Shown: positions 11,177-40,332 of the stretch, one piece after another | Layout: the number at the start of each line of letters is the position of its first letter | Position numbering within the stretch: position 1 is the first letter of the stretch | Virus record (IMG/VR): IMGVR_UViG_3300042904_000107 | Span: 1 to 64,000 of that record | DNA from: a virus | Reading direction: 5' to 3' (one strand) | Length of the DNA stretch: 64,000 nucleotides | Position numbers and translations under genes: made by a program | Notes under the pieces: generated by a model | The model's input: the letters and a program-made list of their open reading frames with translations, nothing else | The model's database searches: none | What the model was told of the DNA's origin: nothing

Positions 11177-11995
11177 TTATTTAATCAACGAAATAGTTCC
11201 AGTAACCGCTTGTGATGCTGGGCGAAGGATTCCATATCCTGTCACACCCTTGACACCGTAATCGAGAACTCTATAGTACCAACGCGGATGCGTCCAATAC
11301 TCGATGTTCTTGGTAATACCCGCAAAGTTATTAGTGATCTTTTCCGAGTGATCCAGAAAGATGGGGAACTTCTGACTGAACAACTTGGATGCTTCGCTGA
11401 AATCGCGCATTCCATATCTCGTGTCGATCATCATATCGGTCACAAGATTCTGGACACACAGACGATTATTCAAACAATCTGTTTGCTCACCAAACCGCTC
11501 GTTGAGTTTAGCTCCGACTTTCGCTGGAAGGTTCGAGTACTCCGTCAATAGCTTTCCCACATTACCATTCAAAGTGGTAATCTGAGTGTTTGCGTCTATC
11601 TCCAGTTTGTCGATGCGCTTGAAGGAATCAGTACGAAGGTTGTTCGCCAATTCGAATGTCTTGGTTTCAACTGAATCGATCCGCTTATCGGCTTTATCAG
11701 CCAACCTTACGACTGTTTTCTGGAGAGACTCAAAGCGAACATTGACTAGAGCCACGATATCCTGACGGCTATCATGTATCTCTTTAACTGCGGCCTCTCT
11801 TGTTACTTGTACTTCTATTTTAGCATCATTGCGTAGGCCAGTCAACTGGTTTTCTACTAGTTTAGTTGATATTAAAGGGGTATAGACGAAGGCGAACGCG
11901 ATTGCTAGAACGAGAACACACTTACAGACGATGTAAGTGATATCCAACCAAGAACGTTGCGGTTTCTCATCGCTGTAGGGTAGTTGAAAGGCCAT
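11177..11995 (-). CDS. Membrane-anchored coiled-coil protein, 272 aa
   Basis: One N-terminal membrane segment (about residues 19-42, VCKCVLVLAIAFAFVYTPL) followed by a long helical region with heptad character (40-170) and a C-terminal globular part. The topology predicts a short cytoplasmic N-terminus and a periplasmic body. Its nearness to the lysozyme gene invites a spanin-like or lysis-control idea, but no spanin signature is present and I would not assign one. Confidence 0.75.
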   Translation of the reverse strand: MAFQLPYSDEKPQRSWLDITYIVCKCVLVLAIAFAFVYTPLISTKLVENQLTGLRNDAKIEVQVTREAAVKEIHDSRQDIVALVNVRFESLQKTVVRLADKADKRIDSVETKTFELANNLRTDSFKRIDKLEIDANTQITTLNGNVGKLLTEYSNLPAKVGAKLNERFGEQTDCLNNRLCVQNLVTDMMIDTRYGMRDFSEASKLFSQKFPIFLDHSEKITNNFAGITKNIEYWTHPRWYYRVLDYGVKGVTGYGILRPASQAVTGTISLIK

Positions 11996-12270
11996 TACTT
12001 TACTCCTGTCAATTTGTCGAAACTGTTAACAGTTTCATGAACACGACCATCAACAAACTTTAGGAATAGTGGGAGCCGGCGGATAGAGAACTTGTGGACT
12101 AATTCACGTTCAGCGTTGAAGTCGACCGTTCCAAATTTGACGTTCTGTGCGATTTGTCCTTCAACCTGAACAGGTAGTGGATCAGATGCATCGGTGAACA
12201 ACACAACTACGATTCCTTTGTAGTCGGTTACTTCAGCCTGGAAATTGTCTTTAGATAAGGTGACGATCAT
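11995..12270 (-). CDS. Thioredoxin-fold protein lacking the CxxC site
   Basis: 91 residues with the thioredoxin pattern: a strand VVVLFTD, a region VKFGTVDFNAERELVHKFSIRRLPLFLKF and the cis-proline loop RRLP. Where thioredoxins have WCxxC this protein reads TDASDPLP, so the redox cysteines are absent. It may therefore be a structural or polymerase-associated adaptor rather than an oxidoreductase. Its stop codon overlaps the next start by one base (TAATG). Confidence 0.65.
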   Translation of the reverse strand: MIVTLSKDNFQAEVTDYKGIVVVLFTDASDPLPVQVEGQIAQNVKFGTVDFNAERELVHKFSIRRLPLFLKFVDGRVHETVNSFDKLTGVK

Positions 12271-12281
12271 ATCACCAATAT

Positions 12282-13166
12282 CTATGTTCCGCGGACTTCT
12301 GAATCGAACGTGATTGAAAAGGTTGGTGGGGTTAGGTCGTCAGTATTGAAGCCGTTGATATCGTAGGACAACGTAATATGTGGTTTGTATGTATCAAAAT
12401 CCGGTTGAGATCCCATTTCGCGAGCTTTTGTCCACTGCTCATTAGCATCCGCGTGTTCGAATCTCAGAACGAATGCGCTTCCAAAAATATCGAAATGGTA
12501 TGGAGGTTCAACAGTTGTTCCGTATGGAAGTAATTCGTAGTCTGGTAATTCGGATGCCTTACTGTAGACCACGGTGCAATGAAGCTTTTCACGAAGAACA
12601 GGATTTGGAATCTTATTCTCTTCCATCCATTTGACAAGCTTCTCAGAGGAATGCTTACTGACCGGAAGGTACATGTAAGCTTTTTCTTTCTCACCTTGGG
12701 CAGCTTCAAGCAATTTGATGGCCAATACTTCGATTAATTCCTCGAATGTATCCAGCATCTTCACACCGTGGATCTCACACGTCACACGAACATTGGTGCG
12801 GCGCCAATACCCATCAGGGCAACAAACCAACGCACGCTCAGGAGCGCGTTCAAGATGTTGACCTAGTTCCAGCAATGTGATTGGAGACTTAGTGTTTGGA
12901 TCGAAATAGAAGATGGCGAGATCTGAATGTCGGAGTGAATTTAACTCCCATTTGATCTGCTCGATTAATTCTGGATGGTCGTCACCCCAAGTTGGATCCC
13001 AATCCTGGCGACGTGGGTTGAGGAATGTAATATGTGGAACTTCTTTGAAGATATTTGTAATCTTATCTTGCCACTTGTCTGCTTTGCCTTGCTCGATTGA
13101 GCCGGCGAGAAAAATGGTCAAGTCTTCAGTTTCAACTGGAAGTGGAGCGTAGATTACGTTAGACAT
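12282..13166 (-). CDS. Fusion: nucleoside 2-deoxyribosyltransferase-like domain + Acb1-like 2H phosphoesterase
   Basis: 294 residues in two parts. Residues 15-115 read IFLAGSIEQG, FLNPRRQDWD and LLELGQHLE, matching the nucleoside 2-deoxyribosyltransferase-like (Nuc_deoxyri_tr2) fold. Residues 165-290 carry two HxT motifs, LHCTVVYSK and YKPHITLSYD, the signature of 2H phosphoesterases; the second resembles the one I recall for T4 Acb1 (57B), which cleaves cyclic oligonucleotide signals of CBASS. The likely role is counter-defence or nucleotide-signal breakdown. The fold calls are solid, the substrate is inferred. Confidence 0.8.
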   Translation of the reverse strand: MSNVIYAPLPVETEDLTIFLAGSIEQGKADKWQDKITNIFKEVPHITFLNPRRQDWDPTWGDDHPELIEQIKWELNSLRHSDLAIFYFDPNTKSPITLLELGQHLERAPERALVCCPDGYWRRTNVRVTCEIHGVKMLDTFEELIEVLAIKLLEAAQGEKEKAYMYLPVSKHSSEKLVKWMEENKIPNPVLREKLHCTVVYSKASELPDYELLPYGTTVEPPYHFDIFGSAFVLRFEHADANEQWTKAREMGSQPDFDTYKPHITLSYDINGFNTDDLTPPTFSITFDSEVRGT

Positions 13167-13174
13167 AATGTTTA

Positions 13175-13251
13175 TGGCGGGAGAGGGGAGACTCGAACTC
13201 CCTCCGCATGGCTTTGGAGGCCAGCAGGCTTCCCATTATCAACACTCTCCC
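13175..13251 (-). tRNA. tRNA-Trp (CCA)
   Basis: Acceptor GGGAGAG pairs with CTCTCCC, T-arm GGGAG-TTCGAGT-CTCCC, anticodon loop CTCCAAA, encoded 3' CCA. Confidence 0.88.
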
Positions 13252-14885: not shown

Positions 14886-15323
14886 CTAGTAACTCTCAAG
14901 AACGTGGAGCTTCTTCGGGCCCATGCCCTTTGCCATCTGCTTCTTCGTGTAGCGAATCGTCGCCCACGTACCGCTTCCACGGAACTCCTCCTTATTGTGG
15001 TCTTTCGGTCCACCGTACATAATGTCTACGGTGTCCACAATATCATGATCTCGGTCGTGATACCGCTTTTCAGGATATACCGTGTCACCTGGCTGAGCAC
15101 AGTATGCCCGGAACTTCGGACTCTCTGGCGGATGAATGTGAATCTTTGCGCCGAGTCTTCGCATGATCTCGTCTCCCTCAGCATCTCCACCAATACAATC
15201 ACCGTGGTGAAACTCGATCTCATGTCCCTTCAATATCAAGCTACGCGCATCGGAGAGCAGCTTCCGGAGTTGCTTCATCGTCATTCCATTGCGCGTAGCG
15301 GTGATACCGACTTTAACGGTCAT
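14886..15323 (-). CDS. SLOG/YpsA-like nucleotide-binding protein
   Basis: 145 residues with KVGITATRNGMT at the N-terminus, FHHGDCIGGDAEGDEIMRRLGAKIHIHPP in the middle and VDIMYGGPKD later. GGD followed by a helix and an IHIHP strand is the SLOG Rossmann pattern that binds nucleotides or nucleotide-derived ligands. The ligand is unknown. It is the first gene after the consensus promoter at 15404-15432. Confidence 0.6.
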   Translation of the reverse strand: MTVKVGITATRNGMTMKQLRKLLSDARSLILKGHEIEFHHGDCIGGDAEGDEIMRRLGAKIHIHPPESPKFRAYCAQPGDTVYPEKRYHDRDHDIVDTVDIMYGGPKDHNKEEFRGSGTWATIRYTKKQMAKGMGPKKLHVLESY

Positions 15324-29449: not shown

Positions 29450-29782
29450 TTAATGCGACAACCCACATTGGCGCGCATCCTCTTCTGTCTTCCATGTTGA
29501 ACCGCATGATGTACAGATCGGCTTTTTCTCGCGCAAACCGAGAAGTATATCCAATTCAATGTCAAGAACCGATGTTTGATTTGTCCGCGGATGATGCGTC
29601 GGACTCAGCACCTCTAGCTCCTCTAATTTCTGCCGTTGTTCCAGAGAAAAAGGAGCATAGTGCGGTTCCACAGTTTCAACATAAACACGCCAATTCATGC
29701 TTCCTGTCGCCTGTCGAATGCTCAATTTCGGCCCAGGAAGACCTCTCATATGGCGCTTCAGGAGTTTTACACGCTCAGTCAT
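29450..29782 (-). CDS. Hypothetical protein with C-terminal zinc knuckle, 110 aa
   Basis: The C-terminus CTSCGSTWKTEEDARQCGLSH looks like a C2H2/C3H finger. The N-terminal part is unassigned. Overlaps the nucleotidyltransferase gene by 8 nt. Confidence 0.65.
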   Translation of the reverse strand: MTERVKLLKRHMRGLPGPKLSIRQATGSMNWRVYVETVEPHYAPFSLEQRQKLEELEVLSPTHHPRTNQTSVLDIELDILLGLREKKPICTSCGSTWKTEEDARQCGLSH

Positions 29783-30542
29783 TTTCGTAGTATCCGTAGG
29801 TGTTTAGGATATACATACAAAGATCGTTCACAAAGTCCAGATCCGGTTTCTCGGGTAGGTCGGTCAGCTTTTCACAAGATTGGGCATACTCGATCTCACT
29901 TTTCGTCAGCCTGATCCAATGTTCTAAGGAGAACCCACCATTTCTAATAGACAGAAGTAAATCGCGGTCACGTTCCCGATAGACATTCAATTCTCCCGTG
30001 AGAAAGAACTCCTGTGCCATATGTAGGATGCGGATCGTATGCGCCGCAAACTTCACATCATATCCGTATTTTGCAACCAACTCTTTACGTTTCGTTCCGA
30101 GTTTACCAGTATTGCAATTGATAACCGAATTCATCTGACTGTTTGCGTATCCAATGAGTGTTTTTCCGGCGCGCTTGGATTCGAATGACTTTCTATGTCG
30201 AATCAACAGGTCACCGGCCTTCTCTCTCAACGCATAATCAGAACCTCGCAAATAAAGCAGCGGAATCACGTTTGGGTTATACGAGAGCATTAGACGTAAG
30301 AACTTCTTTAACTCATATGCGGTTAACTCTGCATTGAGTGTTTCCTTACGCTCTATTTTCAGCGTACCGTCGTTCTCCCAATTTCGGAGACCGATGTAGT
30401 GCGACATCGGGGCAAGCGCAACTCCCATCCAGTCATCGTCACTGTCAGGAGTATCTGTGCCATATGATTTTGAGCCTACTTGGCCCACAAGTATGTACTT
30501 GCCAACTCTTTGGTCAAGTGCGAACGGTGTAAGATCTGCCAT
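29775..30542 (-). CDS. Pol-beta-superfamily nucleotidyltransferase (RlaP/YcgL-like)
   Basis: 255 residues. The active-site signature GSKSYGTDTPDSDDDWMGV gives GS plus two Asp, as in COG3541-type nucleotidyltransferases. Members include RlaP, named for its association with RNA ligases. With an RNA ligase gene 5 kb away and many tRNAs nearby, a role in RNA end processing is plausible. AGGAGTATT precedes the ATG. Confidence 0.8.
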   Translation of the reverse strand: MADLTPFALDQRVGKYILVGQVGSKSYGTDTPDSDDDWMGVALAPMSHYIGLRNWENDGTLKIERKETLNAELTAYELKKFLRLMLSYNPNVIPLLYLRGSDYALREKAGDLLIRHRKSFESKRAGKTLIGYANSQMNSVINCNTGKLGTKRKELVAKYGYDVKFAAHTIRILHMAQEFFLTGELNVYRERDRDLLLSIRNGGFSLEHWIRLTKSEIEYAQSCEKLTDLPEKPDLDFVNDLCMYILNTYGYYEND

Positions 30543-35374: not shown

Positions 35375-36352
35375 TCACTTCTTTTTCTTACCTTCAAGGT
35401 AATCGATGGACACGGCCTTGAGAATCAACCGACCGTGCAGGCGGTCACTGAAGCGCTCGATTACCGGCTTGATGACGACACCTTCTCGGATATGCGCTGC
35501 GCCAGGTAACGTGCTTTCCCCGTTCATCAATTTCTCAACCACTTCGTGACTGTACGGGCCACGATATAGGACAGGCACCAGAAAATCAGACTTGGCACCA
35601 CCAAGGGCGTCGTCGTAGTTAAGGAAACGACCGTCAGCATAAACATCAAAGGCCCTAAAGCCATAAGGAACCTTCTGGTTGAGTCCGTAGTTATATCCTT
35701 TTTGAACAGCACCGAAAATCTCCCCATATAGAATCACATTCGGATTGAGTTGGCAGAACACTTTGATCCACGGCACCAGATCGAGAATGCGCCAGAAAAC
35801 GTTGTCGCCTTCTTTGACCCAGTGATTACGGCTACCGGCGTACATCTTTCCGTCTTGATAGGTGAAGCGGCTGTTCATTCCGTGAATCTTCTCGGTAATG
35901 ACGACCTCTTCTCCTTCTTGAAATACGTTGCGGTATTTCTGCCAGGACTCGATATCGTAAATCACGCCGCGCATTGGAGGCGGTGACTCGTGATTACCCA
36001 TTGCGGCATTCACCACACTGGACAGTTCAGGCTCGTAGTGTACGATACCGAGTTTCTCGGCTACATCATCACCGATCTCAGCGCCTTCTGGTGCCGGAAC
36101 CAGCATACCGTAACTCTCAATACCGCGGAGCCTCTTCGCCTTGATTTTGACCTTACCTTCTAAGAAGGCGAACTGTTCGGTGTCGGGAACGACCGAGTCA
36201 GGCGGAATGTATGCTCCTCGATCTTTGCCTTCCCAATCAGCGGTACGGACGCAAACGGTGTAACCATCAAACACCTTAACAACCGAAAGGCTGTCAGCAT
36301 TGGGATGCTTCTCCAGGCTCACTGGGACCACTTCTACTCTGAATGTTGCCAT
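35375..36352 (-). CDS. RNA ligase, Rnl5/DraRnl-like with N-terminal OB domain
   Basis: 325 residues. The N-terminal OB-type domain (about 1-110) has HPNADSLSVVKVFDGYTV. The nucleotidyltransferase core has motif I TEKIHGMNSR (catalytic Lys), YGEIFG (motif III/IIIa), EGVVIKP (motif IV) and LILKAVS (motif V). It seals RNA nicks, plausibly in tRNA repair during anticodon-nuclease attack. The ATG at 36352 has GGAGG 7 nt upstream and a hairpin before it; longer starts overlap a zinc-finger gene. Confidence 0.88.
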   Translation of the reverse strand: MATFRVEVVPVSLEKHPNADSLSVVKVFDGYTVCVRTADWEGKDRGAYIPPDSVVPDTEQFAFLEGKVKIKAKRLRGIESYGMLVPAPEGAEIGDDVAEKLGIVHYEPELSSVVNAAMGNHESPPPMRGVIYDIESWQKYRNVFQEGEEVVITEKIHGMNSRFTYQDGKMYAGSRNHWVKEGDNVFWRILDLVPWIKVFCQLNPNVILYGEIFGAVQKGYNYGLNQKVPYGFRAFDVYADGRFLNYDDALGGAKSDFLVPVLYRGPYSHEVVEKLMNGESTLPGAAHIREGVVIKPVIERFSDRLHGRLILKAVSIDYLEGKKKK

Positions 36353-36473
36353 TGGTATTCCTCCAGTCCAGATAAGCGCATTCGCACTTATTGGAACAAA
36401 ATACAGGTTCTGAAGGAAGACCGCACCAAGCACAGAGTCCGGTGAACCGGGTCACTTCAAGTATTAAACTCAT
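36294..36473 (-). CDS. Small zinc-finger protein overlapping the RNA ligase start, 59 aa
   Basis: LCAWCGLPSEPVFCSNKCECAYLDW is a convincing treble-clef pattern. The tail overlaps the ligase coding sequence by 59 nt in another frame. The ribosome site (AAGG directly before ATG) is poor. Confidence 0.45.
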   Translation of the reverse strand: MSLILEVTRFTGLCAWCGLPSEPVFCSNKCECAYLDWRNTNGNIQSRSGPSEPGEASQC

Positions 36474-37580: not shown

Positions 37581-37736
37581 CTACTTTTTATCCGGTAAGA
37601 ATGTTGACCGAAACCGCAAACCTTCAACTGCGACGTCGGCGTTGGACTTTGCGTTCCAGTCATCGGAGCCGGCTCGTATAGTGGTAACGAAGACCAGCTT
37701 CCAAAACTCTTTCTCTTCCTCGTTGTTGAATTTCAT
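37581..37736 (-). CDS. Small hypothetical protein, 51 aa
   Basis: MKFNNEEEKEFWKLVFVTTIRAGSDDW... Coupled to nadV by an ATGA overlap. The NxxxDW and FWKL elements are typical of small phage helical proteins with unknown role. Confidence 0.6.
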   Translation of the reverse strand: MKFNNEEEKEFWKLVFVTTIRAGSDDWNAKSNADVAVEGLRFRSTFLPDKK

Positions 37737-39247
37737 ACGTCTCTAGACCATGAGGCGCCGACCACTCGCTTTCCGTAATCGGTTGTCCCAACTCTTTCTC
37801 GGATGTAAGTCAGACTGTACTCGTTGGTCAACACCCCGTCCAGGAAAACAGTGACGAGGTGGTCGCCAAAATGATTGATGAACGGATCGATGAGCGACGA
37901 CACAGTGTGGAACTTCTTGTCATTGCCGTTCTGAAAAACGACTTTGTGGACACCGCGCTTACTGCCCTTACCCTTATCACCGACTGGGTCTTTGTACACA
38001 TCGTACCAGACGCCGTTGATTCGGATCGCGGAGCACTTGAAGGCGAACTTCAACGTGTCGCGGTCGACGCCTTGCAGCAACTTACCACCCATCCCGAAAC
38101 AAGCCATGTTGTCGATTGACCAACCAGCATCAGTGATTGCCCGACACAGAGCGCGGATGGTGTGAATGTTCATACCATCACCCTGAAGGAGCCGAACGAA
38201 CTGCGGTAGCACTTTGTAGCCCTTGCGGTTCGTCTCATAGCCGAAGCGATCACCGAGGATTTCAAGCAACTTCAAGATGGTTGGGATGATTTCACCGGAG
38301 TCGGGGCGAACGACAACCGTACCATTTCGCGATGCGACTTCCGCTTTCAATTCGCGTCCGAAGATTTCGCTACAGGCATTGAAAATGTCGTAGCTGTCCG
38401 AGACAATCGAAACGATGCCCGTCGGATAGCTTTGGAGCATGTTCGCGTAGGCTTGTGCCTCTCTGTCGCGACCCCATGAGGTGATTGTCGAGTGCTCGGC
38501 TGCCGGCACACTGAAACCAGGCATCGAATCGGGACGGTAATACTTCAGAGCGAGAGACAATCCGACCATTGTGTCGGTACCTCTGAAATTTACCATATGT
38601 GCTGCGGCACCGATTGCGGCAGATTCACGAGACGTTGAGCCGCGTGAACCGAAGTCTTGAAGCATGAAGACCAGTTTGCCTTCGAGAGTTTCGGGATCTC
38701 CGCTAAGTTCGAGGTACTCGCGAATGATATCCTTGATCTCAGCGCTCAATGACGCCACGGTGATTGGATACCACAAGCGCATAAGCATAGTCTCAACATA
38801 GTTGACTAGCCAGTAGCACTTCGGATCCGTATTCACTACCGTGACCAATGCATTGTGTGTTCCGATTCGCGTGCCTTCCGGAATCGCCTTGATGAGCAAC
38901 GGAAGGTGCCCACCGTGATGGTCGACAATGTAGCGCCAGCCTTCTTCGTTGAAGTTTCGCGGATCTCCGCCCATGTGCTCCACGATCATGAGTTTTGCCA
39001 CGTCGATCATTTCGTGGGTCACGACCGGTCCGGTCAGATACTTCTTGATGATGTACTGGAGTCCAAACATCACCGTCTTATCGAACTGACCGCCGCGCGA
39101 TTCGAGGTAGCTGTAGACGTATTCGGTGTCCGGAGGATATTGCATCCAGTGGCTCGTTTTGTACGAGTCGCTGTCCAGGATCACGTTGAATAGGAGATCG
39201 TCTGGAAGATTCTCTAATTGTTGAAGACTTGTTAATGGGAGCGTCAT
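37733..39247 (-). CDS. nadV: Nicotinamide phosphoribosyltransferase
   Basis: 504 residues of the NAMPT family, converting nicotinamide and PRPP to NMN. Landmarks are DSYKTSHWMQYPP and YSYLESRGG at the N-terminus, DFGSRGSTSRESAAIGAAAHMVNFRGTDT, FSVPAAEHSTITSWG, VSDSYDIFNACSEI and RPDSGEI, with GMGGKLLQ for phosphate binding. It overlaps nadM by 4 nt. Together they rebuild NAD+ from nicotinamide (NAD+ reconstitution pathway 2), which lets phages overcome NAD-depleting defences. Confidence 0.97.
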   Translation of the reverse strand: MTLPLTSLQQLENLPDDLLFNVILDSDSYKTSHWMQYPPDTEYVYSYLESRGGQFDKTVMFGLQYIIKKYLTGPVVTHEMIDVAKLMIVEHMGGDPRNFNEEGWRYIVDHHGGHLPLLIKAIPEGTRIGTHNALVTVVNTDPKCYWLVNYVETMLMRLWYPITVASLSAEIKDIIREYLELSGDPETLEGKLVFMLQDFGSRGSTSRESAAIGAAAHMVNFRGTDTMVGLSLALKYYRPDSMPGFSVPAAEHSTITSWGRDREAQAYANMLQSYPTGIVSIVSDSYDIFNACSEIFGRELKAEVASRNGTVVVRPDSGEIIPTILKLLEILGDRFGYETNRKGYKVLPQFVRLLQGDGMNIHTIRALCRAITDAGWSIDNMACFGMGGKLLQGVDRDTLKFAFKCSAIRINGVWYDVYKDPVGDKGKGSKRGVHKVVFQNGNDKKFHTVSSLIDPFINHFGDHLVTVFLDGVLTNEYSLTYIRERVGTTDYGKRVVGASWSRDV

Positions 39248-40332
39248 AATTTATCCGACCAGGTCCCTTTATCCAGTCCTTCTAGGGACATTTTTGTGTC
39301 TGACCAGTTTACGTTTTCAGCCGGAACAGGTCCCGCATAGACCTTCTTTCCGTCTACATGGTTGAAAGAGAACTTACGGACATCGGTGTACTCGGAAGTC
39401 ACTTCACCGTGATTCTCATCGCCGCGAAGGCTGTACTTACGGAGTAATGCGTCAAGCAGCACGTGATGCTCCTTCACGATCATTGCTTCCTCAAGCAGCA
39501 CCATATCGAACCACTTGACTTCATCCACGTCGTCGCCGGCTCTGACGGGTCCGCTCAGATAGTGACCAACATAGAAGATGGTGTAAGCCCCGTCTTTTGT
39601 GCCGTTATATCGCCAGTCATCGATGGGAGTGTCATCAACATACTCCATTTCACCGATGGTGCAACCGGCTTCTTCGGTCACTTCACGCACACCGGCGTGC
39701 TTCGCTTTCTCTCCAGGGTTCACGTGTCCCCCGAAAAAGCGCCACTGACCTTCGGGATCTTCTTTCTTTCGGCCGAGTAGAACTCGCGCGGCTTTTCTGA
39801 AATCGACGACCGCGACGTCCACGCAGAGAGCATGTGATGGATATTTGTTTGCCGTGGCATAGATGACACCTCGACGGAAATCTTCCGATGGCCGTACGGT
39901 GTGATATGCCTGTTTGCGCGCCAAAGTGGCGTTGATTCCGTGAATCTCGTCCAATTCGGCGGTCTGAAACCGACCTGTGTAGTGTGTGATGAAGGAATCG
40001 CGGCTGCCGTAGAGCACCACTTTTTCGTGTGGATGTAACAAACGAATCATTCGGTCGAGATTGTGGGACCAAAGATCGTCGCTCCGAACGTCATTGATTG
40101 CCAACACTTCAACACCAGGGTAGGTGTCTTGTAACATCCGATAGCGCGTGGCGAAATCAAGCGGATTCTTGACAGTCGGAACAACATTCGCAACACCGAG
40201 CACGATGGCGAACTTGTTATGTCTTGCCGCGACCGAATCAATCAATTCGCGGTGTCCTTCTGTCAGATAGGGTGTCTGGAATCTGGCAACAATAACACCT
40301 AAGTCGCCCTCCGGGCCTCTCAAATTGAGCAT
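39244..40332 (-). CDS. nadM: Bifunctional NMN adenylyltransferase / Nudix hydrolase
   Basis: 362 residues. The nucleotidyltransferase part (about 8-175) starts GVIVARFQTPYLTEGHREL and includes LYGSRDSFI. The Nudix part has the box GGHVNPGEKAKHAGVREVTEEAG near residue 205. It converts NMN and ATP to NAD+; the Nudix domain likely cleans up ADP-ribose-type compounds. An additional C-terminal segment of about 70 residues is unassigned. Confidence 0.96.
   Translation of the reverse strand: MLNLRGPEGDLGVIVARFQTPYLTEGHRELIDSVAARHNKFAIVLGVANVVPTVKNPLDFATRYRMLQDTYPGVEVLAINDVRSDDLWSHNLDRMIRLLHPHEKVVLYGSRDSFITHYTGRFQTAELDEIHGINATLARKQAYHTVRPSEDFRRGVIYATANKYPSHALCVDVAVVDFRKAARVLLGRKKEDPEGQWRFFGGHVNPGEKAKHAGVREVTEEAGCTIGEMEYVDDTPIDDWRYNGTKDGAYTIFYVGHYLSGPVRAGDDVDEVKWFDMVLLEEAMIVKEHHVLLDALLRKYSLRGDENHGEVTSEYTDVRKFSFNHVDGKKVYAGPVPAENVNWSDTKMSLEGLDKGTWSDKL

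Follow-up and report, generated by a model that had tools for sequence, protein, structure and literature searches.

A single gene of a large T4-like phage encodes a protein in which an N-glycosidase domain resembling NDT, DNPH1 and MilB, hereafter the deoxyribosyltransferase-like (DRT) domain, is fused to a 2H phosphodiesterase domain of the Acb1 family, and we give even chances to the reading that this fusion is a bifunctional nucleotide-processing cargo protein acting in counter-defence or nucleotide recycling. The gene lies in the window, meaning the whole stretch of 64,000 nt that was analysed, which is part of a virus record of 97,144 bases. The phage carries RegA and T4-type clamp-loader genes, a DNA polymerase whose best match among deposited phages is to T4-like cyanophages (~43% identity), genes for a dUTPase and a dATP/dGTP hydrolase, and, within the window, 30 tRNA genes (ARAGORN). 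The features on which the analysis turns are as follows.

12282..13166, minus strand: DRT-2H fusion gene, a single open reading frame with two Pfam domains above cut-off
12702..13166, minus strand: N-terminal NDT/DNPH1/MilB-like N-glycosidase domain, residues 1-155 (PF15891, 5.5e-27; AF2; VIA)
12282..12701, minus strand: C-terminal Acb1-family 2H phosphodiesterase domain, spanning residues 156-294 (PF23474, 1.3e-25; AF2; VIA)
13175..13249, minus strand: tRNA-Trp (ARAGORN), just upstream of the fusion, the conserved left border of a variable slot
11995..12270, minus strand: thioredoxin-like gene (PF00085, 1.3e-6), syntenic in the relatives L215 and L216, the conserved right border of the slot
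37733..39247, minus strand: nicotinamide phosphoribosyltransferase (NAMPT; PF04095, 2.6e-48; PF18127, 1.4e-35)
39244..40332, minus strand: NUDIX-domain protein (PF00293, 9.2e-14), overlapping the NAMPT gene and probably its partner in NAD+ salvage

The first-pass annotation had placed a fusion of two domains at 12282-13166, and an open reading frame of 294 aa with an ATG start occupies exactly that interval on the minus strand, with both domains above their curated Pfam cut-offs and matches to PHROG 30579 and 755 in agreement with the two domain calls. A chimeric assembly was considered as the source of the fusion and judged unlikely, because the codon usage of both halves matches the phage's own and the flanking gene order is kept in relatives; the frame is also open throughout, with no internal stop. 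The ATG lies 8 nt past the 3' end of the tRNA-Trp gene, no Shine-Dalgarno sequence is visible there (13166-13175), and processing of the tRNA would yield a nearly leaderless fusion mRNA. Also in the window are genes for a TROVE (Ro60-like) protein, RlaP and an RNA ligase (25023-26498, 29775-30542 and 35375-36433), which lie inside or right beside the tRNA-rich region and make up a phage RNA-repair set. A 145-aa protein encoded at 14886-15323 is 41% identical to its counterpart in L215, has PHROG 289 as its sole match and, judged by eye, has a SLOG-type nucleotide-binding look.

Each domain was modelled separately with AlphaFold (AF2) and the models were compared with solved structures using VIA. 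Structure prediction, which had been proposed as a check on both domains, was confident for each (pLDDT 95.3 for the DRT domain and 94.7 for the 2H domain). The C-terminal half matches PF23474 (Acb1) over residues 163-291 (E 1.3e-25, 90.2 bits against a curated cut-off of 27), and a phmmer search of the PDB retrieved FBB1 Acb1 (7t26) at 9e-10. The same structure is the best match to the 2H model (Z 17.7, rmsd 1.7 over 129 residues, 28% identity), followed by a Burkholderia phage Acb1-type phosphodiesterase (Z 14.8) and LigT (about 11.9). The HxT...HxT pair of 2H phosphoesterases that had been read from this part of the protein is present as H196-C-T198 and H263-I-T265, equivalent to H44, T46, H113 and T115 of Acb1, and is invariant in 39 aligned relatives. 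According to Hobbs et al. (PMC9117128), bases stack on Y12, W74, F107 and W147 of Acb1, E141 reads adenine, and residues 145-152 form a lid. Like the T4 and FBB1 enzymes (7t26/7t27), the fusion has the 2H fold, the HxT/HxT tetrad and aromatics at the Y12 and F107 positions (Y164 and F257); unlike them, it has Phe for Trp at W74 (F228), its 2H domain follows a glycosidase domain, and its chain ends at residue 294, where G293 pairs with E141 in the alignment, W147 has no counterpart and the C-terminal lid is absent.

In a tree of the family, the 2H domain falls in a virion/polyvalent branch apart from the T4-type Acb1 branch (support 95/86), together with domains of Mu-type portals, of XkdF-protease and MuF proteins, and of a protein of 1572 aa that also carries NUDIX, HipA_C and ART domains. 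The label of an Acb1-like domain therefore held for family and fold and failed for the T4-type branch, and anti-CBASS activity is a possibility that is not to be assumed from close homology, since the domain lies in a different branch and the equivalents of the lid, E141 and W147 are gone. With the polyvalent and virion 2H domains (those of Mu-type portals, including Pam3 8hds, and of XkdF-protease and MuF proteins) the fusion shares the branch, a short W74 loop and the habit of fusion. Their partners are structural or injected proteins, whereas the partner here is a DRT domain encoded outside the structural genes, and most of them retain residues past the conserved Glu at E290, unlike the fusion. 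A polyvalent protein is recognised by a site among structural genes or by fusion to a virion domain; the present gene lies next to the tRNA array and upstream of the DNA polymerase, and its product has no virion domain. Half of the 80 nearest relatives of the 2H domain in a further scan sit in open reading frames of more than 260 aa, and none lies near a DRT gene. The 2H domains of polyvalent phage proteins have been predicted to degrade defence nucleotides (PMC5512222). Acb1-family domains occur at the C-terminus of Mu-type portals and also within MuF and XkdF-protease proteins (L115:3552-5672, PDB 8hds, L112, L168 and L102 for the whole set); one is present in the Pam3 portal structure (8hds), where its second HxT is H-I-S, and the 1572-aa phage protein at L098:4830-9545 combines Acb1, NUDIX, HipA_C and ADP-ribosyltransferase domains.

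LigT and CPDase also belong to the 2H fold, and one alternative is that the domain opens the 2',3'-cyclic phosphate termini left on tRNAs when host nucleases cleave them and works with the phage RNA ligase, RlaP and TROVE proteins. The position of the fusion gene beside the tRNA array, and the presence of those three genes and of 30 tRNA genes in the same genome, speak for such a role in RNA repair. We consider it improbable, as in sequence and fold the domain resembles Acb1 more than LigT (Z 17.7 vs 11.9), 22 kb separate the RNA ligase gene from the fusion, end healing gives little reason for a glycosidase partner, and no association with RNA ligases was ever seen for polyvalent 2H domains or their stand-alone versions (PMC5512222).

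The N-terminal half matches PF15891, named "Nuc_deoxyri_tr2", over residues 17-120 (E 5.5e-27, 94.6 bits against a curated cut-off of 30), and phmmer against the PDB returned 4mcj at 1.3e-18. The same entry is the closest solved structure to the model (Z 20.0, rmsd 1.8 over 140 residues), after which come YtoQ, DNPH1, MilB and NDTs at Z 13-10 (DNPH1 11.7, MilB 11.4), with TIR domains at Z about 10. The domain has an NPRR motif, and residues F19, W32, Q33, N50, R52, R53, D57, W73, E74, Y87, P95, E100, G102, C116 and N125 are invariant in 37 aligned rows. The glycosidase Glu, E100, is intact in the fusion; its ELG motif marks it as the putative nucleophile, and by its spacing E74 may be the equivalent of DNPH1 D80. 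The fusion resembles DNPH1, MilB and DmtZ in fold (Z 11-12 for DNPH1 and MilB) and in the Glu nucleophile motif, and differs in having Glu for the acid/base Asp and, like MilB, Phe in place of Tyr24; fusions of DmtZ to the dUTPase-like DutZ occur, the partner here being instead a 2H domain.

In all 37 aligned sequences F19 occupies the Tyr7/Tyr24 position of deoxy specificity, a placement taken from the starts of the VIA alignments (model 19 = MilB 17, DNPH1 24, NDT 7) that assumes a gap-free first strand. In MilB, F17 makes room for ribose and the F17Y change takes the enzyme back to deoxyribose (PMC10603095), and the equivalent position is usually Phe or Ala in NADase TIRs and Tyr in NDT and DNPH1 (PMC11204291). 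The domain thus probably lacks the active-site Tyr that gives a true NDT its 2-deoxy specificity, and the name "deoxyribosyl" is probably wrong, because the specificity Tyr is replaced by an invariant Phe as in ribose-type enzymes; of the earlier description as deoxyribosyltransferase-like, the fold survives and the deoxy specificity probably does not. Among phage PF15891 proteins (4mcj-like; Caulobacter and Brevundimonas jumbo phages), the closest viral ones are ~41-53% identical to the fusion, which keeps all of their invariant residues; the best 80 relatives in viral contigs are all, unlike the fusion, stand-alone genes of ~160 aa. Our literature search found no paper on PF15891 by name and no reported substrate, and an earlier survey gives the DrHyd-superfamily proteins of viruses as ARC-type only and, where it does so, has nothing on the PF15891 set described here (PMC9503650). 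In Tunturiibacter phage Tunturi_5, ORF225 (L004:2910-6698) has an N-terminal DRT domain on a 1262-aa protein with ART-PolyVal domains and adjoins the portal gene, and in Xanthomonas phage X1 (L005:4004-4935) a tandem pair of DRT paralogues lies just upstream of a tRNA array.

The slot between the tRNA-Trp and thioredoxin-like genes is a cargo site observed in three states: empty in L216, with a DRT gene alone in L215, and with the DRT-2H fusion in the window. L215 (175,698 bases) has a polymerase 59% identical to that of the window and the order tRNA-Trp, a stand-alone 156-aa DRT gene, the thioredoxin-like gene, counterparts of two window proteins (272 aa and 122 aa), and the polymerase. In L216, tRNA-Trp is followed directly by the thioredoxin-like gene, and no DRT or Acb1 match was found in that record. 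The orthology of the window and L215 DRT domains rests on gene order, since the two are grouped weakly in the DRT tree (87/26). No second fusion appears among the matches listed from the profile and genome scans, which may omit records very near the window. A direct protein scan of viral contigs with the full protein found no relative, no phage in a collection of 50,697 records covers 80% of it, and PADLOC and NCBIfam have no match to it. Matches by tblastn in T4-like phages over query residues 74-276 were rejected as spurious extension into a neighbour, the annotation giving two genes there.

This single instance among the scan matches listed, together with the short linker and the 2H C-terminus without a lid, would suit a chance read-through that joined two unrelated accessory genes within the cargo slot, each half acting alone or one of them decaying. 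We give little credence to such an accident: both catalytic sites are intact and the frame is open, and in contig L097 an unfused Acb1-like gene, with its lid, overlaps a DRT gene on the same strand and in the other order, which shows that members of both families can share an operon.

A new lead is that phage DRT genes track with NAD+ salvage. The figures for DRT genes refer to the matches listed, which comprise 56 non-redundant loci with 133 neighbours and 50 DRT-bearing records. NAPRTase/NAMPT is the commonest family among the listed neighbours (13 of 133, beside 3 NUDIX and 1 NADAR), and at 11 of the 56 listed loci NAMPT is the immediate same-strand neighbour, in either order. NAMPT_N was found in 40 of the 50 listed DRT-bearing records and in 5 of 40 Acb1-bearing ones (Fisher p 1e-10, ignoring relatedness and with a comparison set rich in T4-like coliphages), and three of those five also carry DRT. 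Among records of at least 100 kb, NAMPT occurs in 18 of the 22 listed DRT-bearing ones and in 1 of 12 Acb1-bearing ones without DRT (p 5e-5, relatedness again ignored). Genes for IF-3 are the second commonest DRT neighbours (8/133; loci L009-L088, among the matches listed). Both the window phage and L215 carry NAMPT, in the window phage 24 kb from the fusion gene and not adjacent to it. We found no paper that pairs a nucleoside 2-deoxyribosyltransferase with NAMPT in phages. The gene for RyDEP, a glycosidase that destroys 2'/3'cADPR and feeds NAD+ synthesis, lies inside a phage NARP1 operon (PMC13232231). What the two proteins have in common is the notion that a glycosidase is linked to NAD+ synthesis by the phage; RyDEP is an unrelated RyR-type domain of proven activity, whereas that of the fusion is predicted. 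A NARP1 operon has adjacent Adps and Namat genes, and the window phage has the NUDIX gene and a NAMPT-family gene (Nampt or Namat) 24 kb from the fusion.

The same linkage would fit a purely metabolic role, in which the DRT N-glycosidase supplies ribose 5-phosphate or nicotinamide to phage NAD+ salvage and the 2H domain opens cyclic nucleotides for the same pool. Both MilB and DNPH1 split NMPs into base and sugar phosphate (PMC10603095; PMC12884076), and the phage has NAMPT, NUDIX, dUTPase and dATP/dGTP hydrolase genes. We regard this role as rather unlikely, the 2H partner being of the Acb1 family, not LigT or CPDase, and the variable cargo slot suiting an accessory role better than core metabolism.

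For a bifunctional cargo protein, we infer catalysis, substrates and any anti-immune role from the observations above. The 2H domain would be a metal-independent phosphodiesterase for small cyclic or 2',3'-cyclic-phosphate nucleotides, with H196, T198, H263 and T265 doing the catalysis as in Acb1; cleavage of cGAMP may not occur, since the E141 and W147 equivalents and the lid are missing. The DRT domain would cleave an N-ribosyl bond through a double displacement in which E100 is the nucleophile and E74 the acid/base, and would act on a ribonucleotide or a nucleotide of the NAD+/ADP-ribose type more likely than on a deoxynucleotide. Two independent activities held together by fusion would be a simpler reading than a direct relay between the domains. 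The known product of Acb1 is GpAp (5'-OH, 3'-phosphate), and to our knowledge GpAp is not a known substrate of the DRT glycosidase family; the proposal that one signal is degraded in two steps found no support on this ground and was dropped. The companion proposal, that two kinds of immune signal are degraded, is independently supported, at the level of genomic context, by the linkage of DRT to NAMPT, the degradation itself being a prediction.

Our analysis suggests that a counter-defence role is probable, and its plausibility derives from two precedents, RyDEP and the predicted polyvalent 2H domains. Against it stand the plain base metabolism known for phage NDT-family enzymes such as DmtZ (PMC12884076), the distance of 24 kb to NAMPT and the occurrence of the fusion only once among the matches listed. 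In its most specific form, which we hold to be possible and rather doubtful, the protein would be a two-headed eraser of immune signals, its 2H domain cutting CBASS-type cyclic oligonucleotides and its glycosidase a Thoeris-type NAD+-derived signal, with PF15891 comprising widespread ribose-type glycosidases tied to phage NAD+ salvage. If so, a single gene would act against two branches of signalling in bacterial immunity, and the large and probably misnamed PF15891 family of phages would be a set of candidate NAD+-linked counter-defence or recycling enzymes, for which the NAMPT linkage alone already gives a concrete and cheap list of assays.
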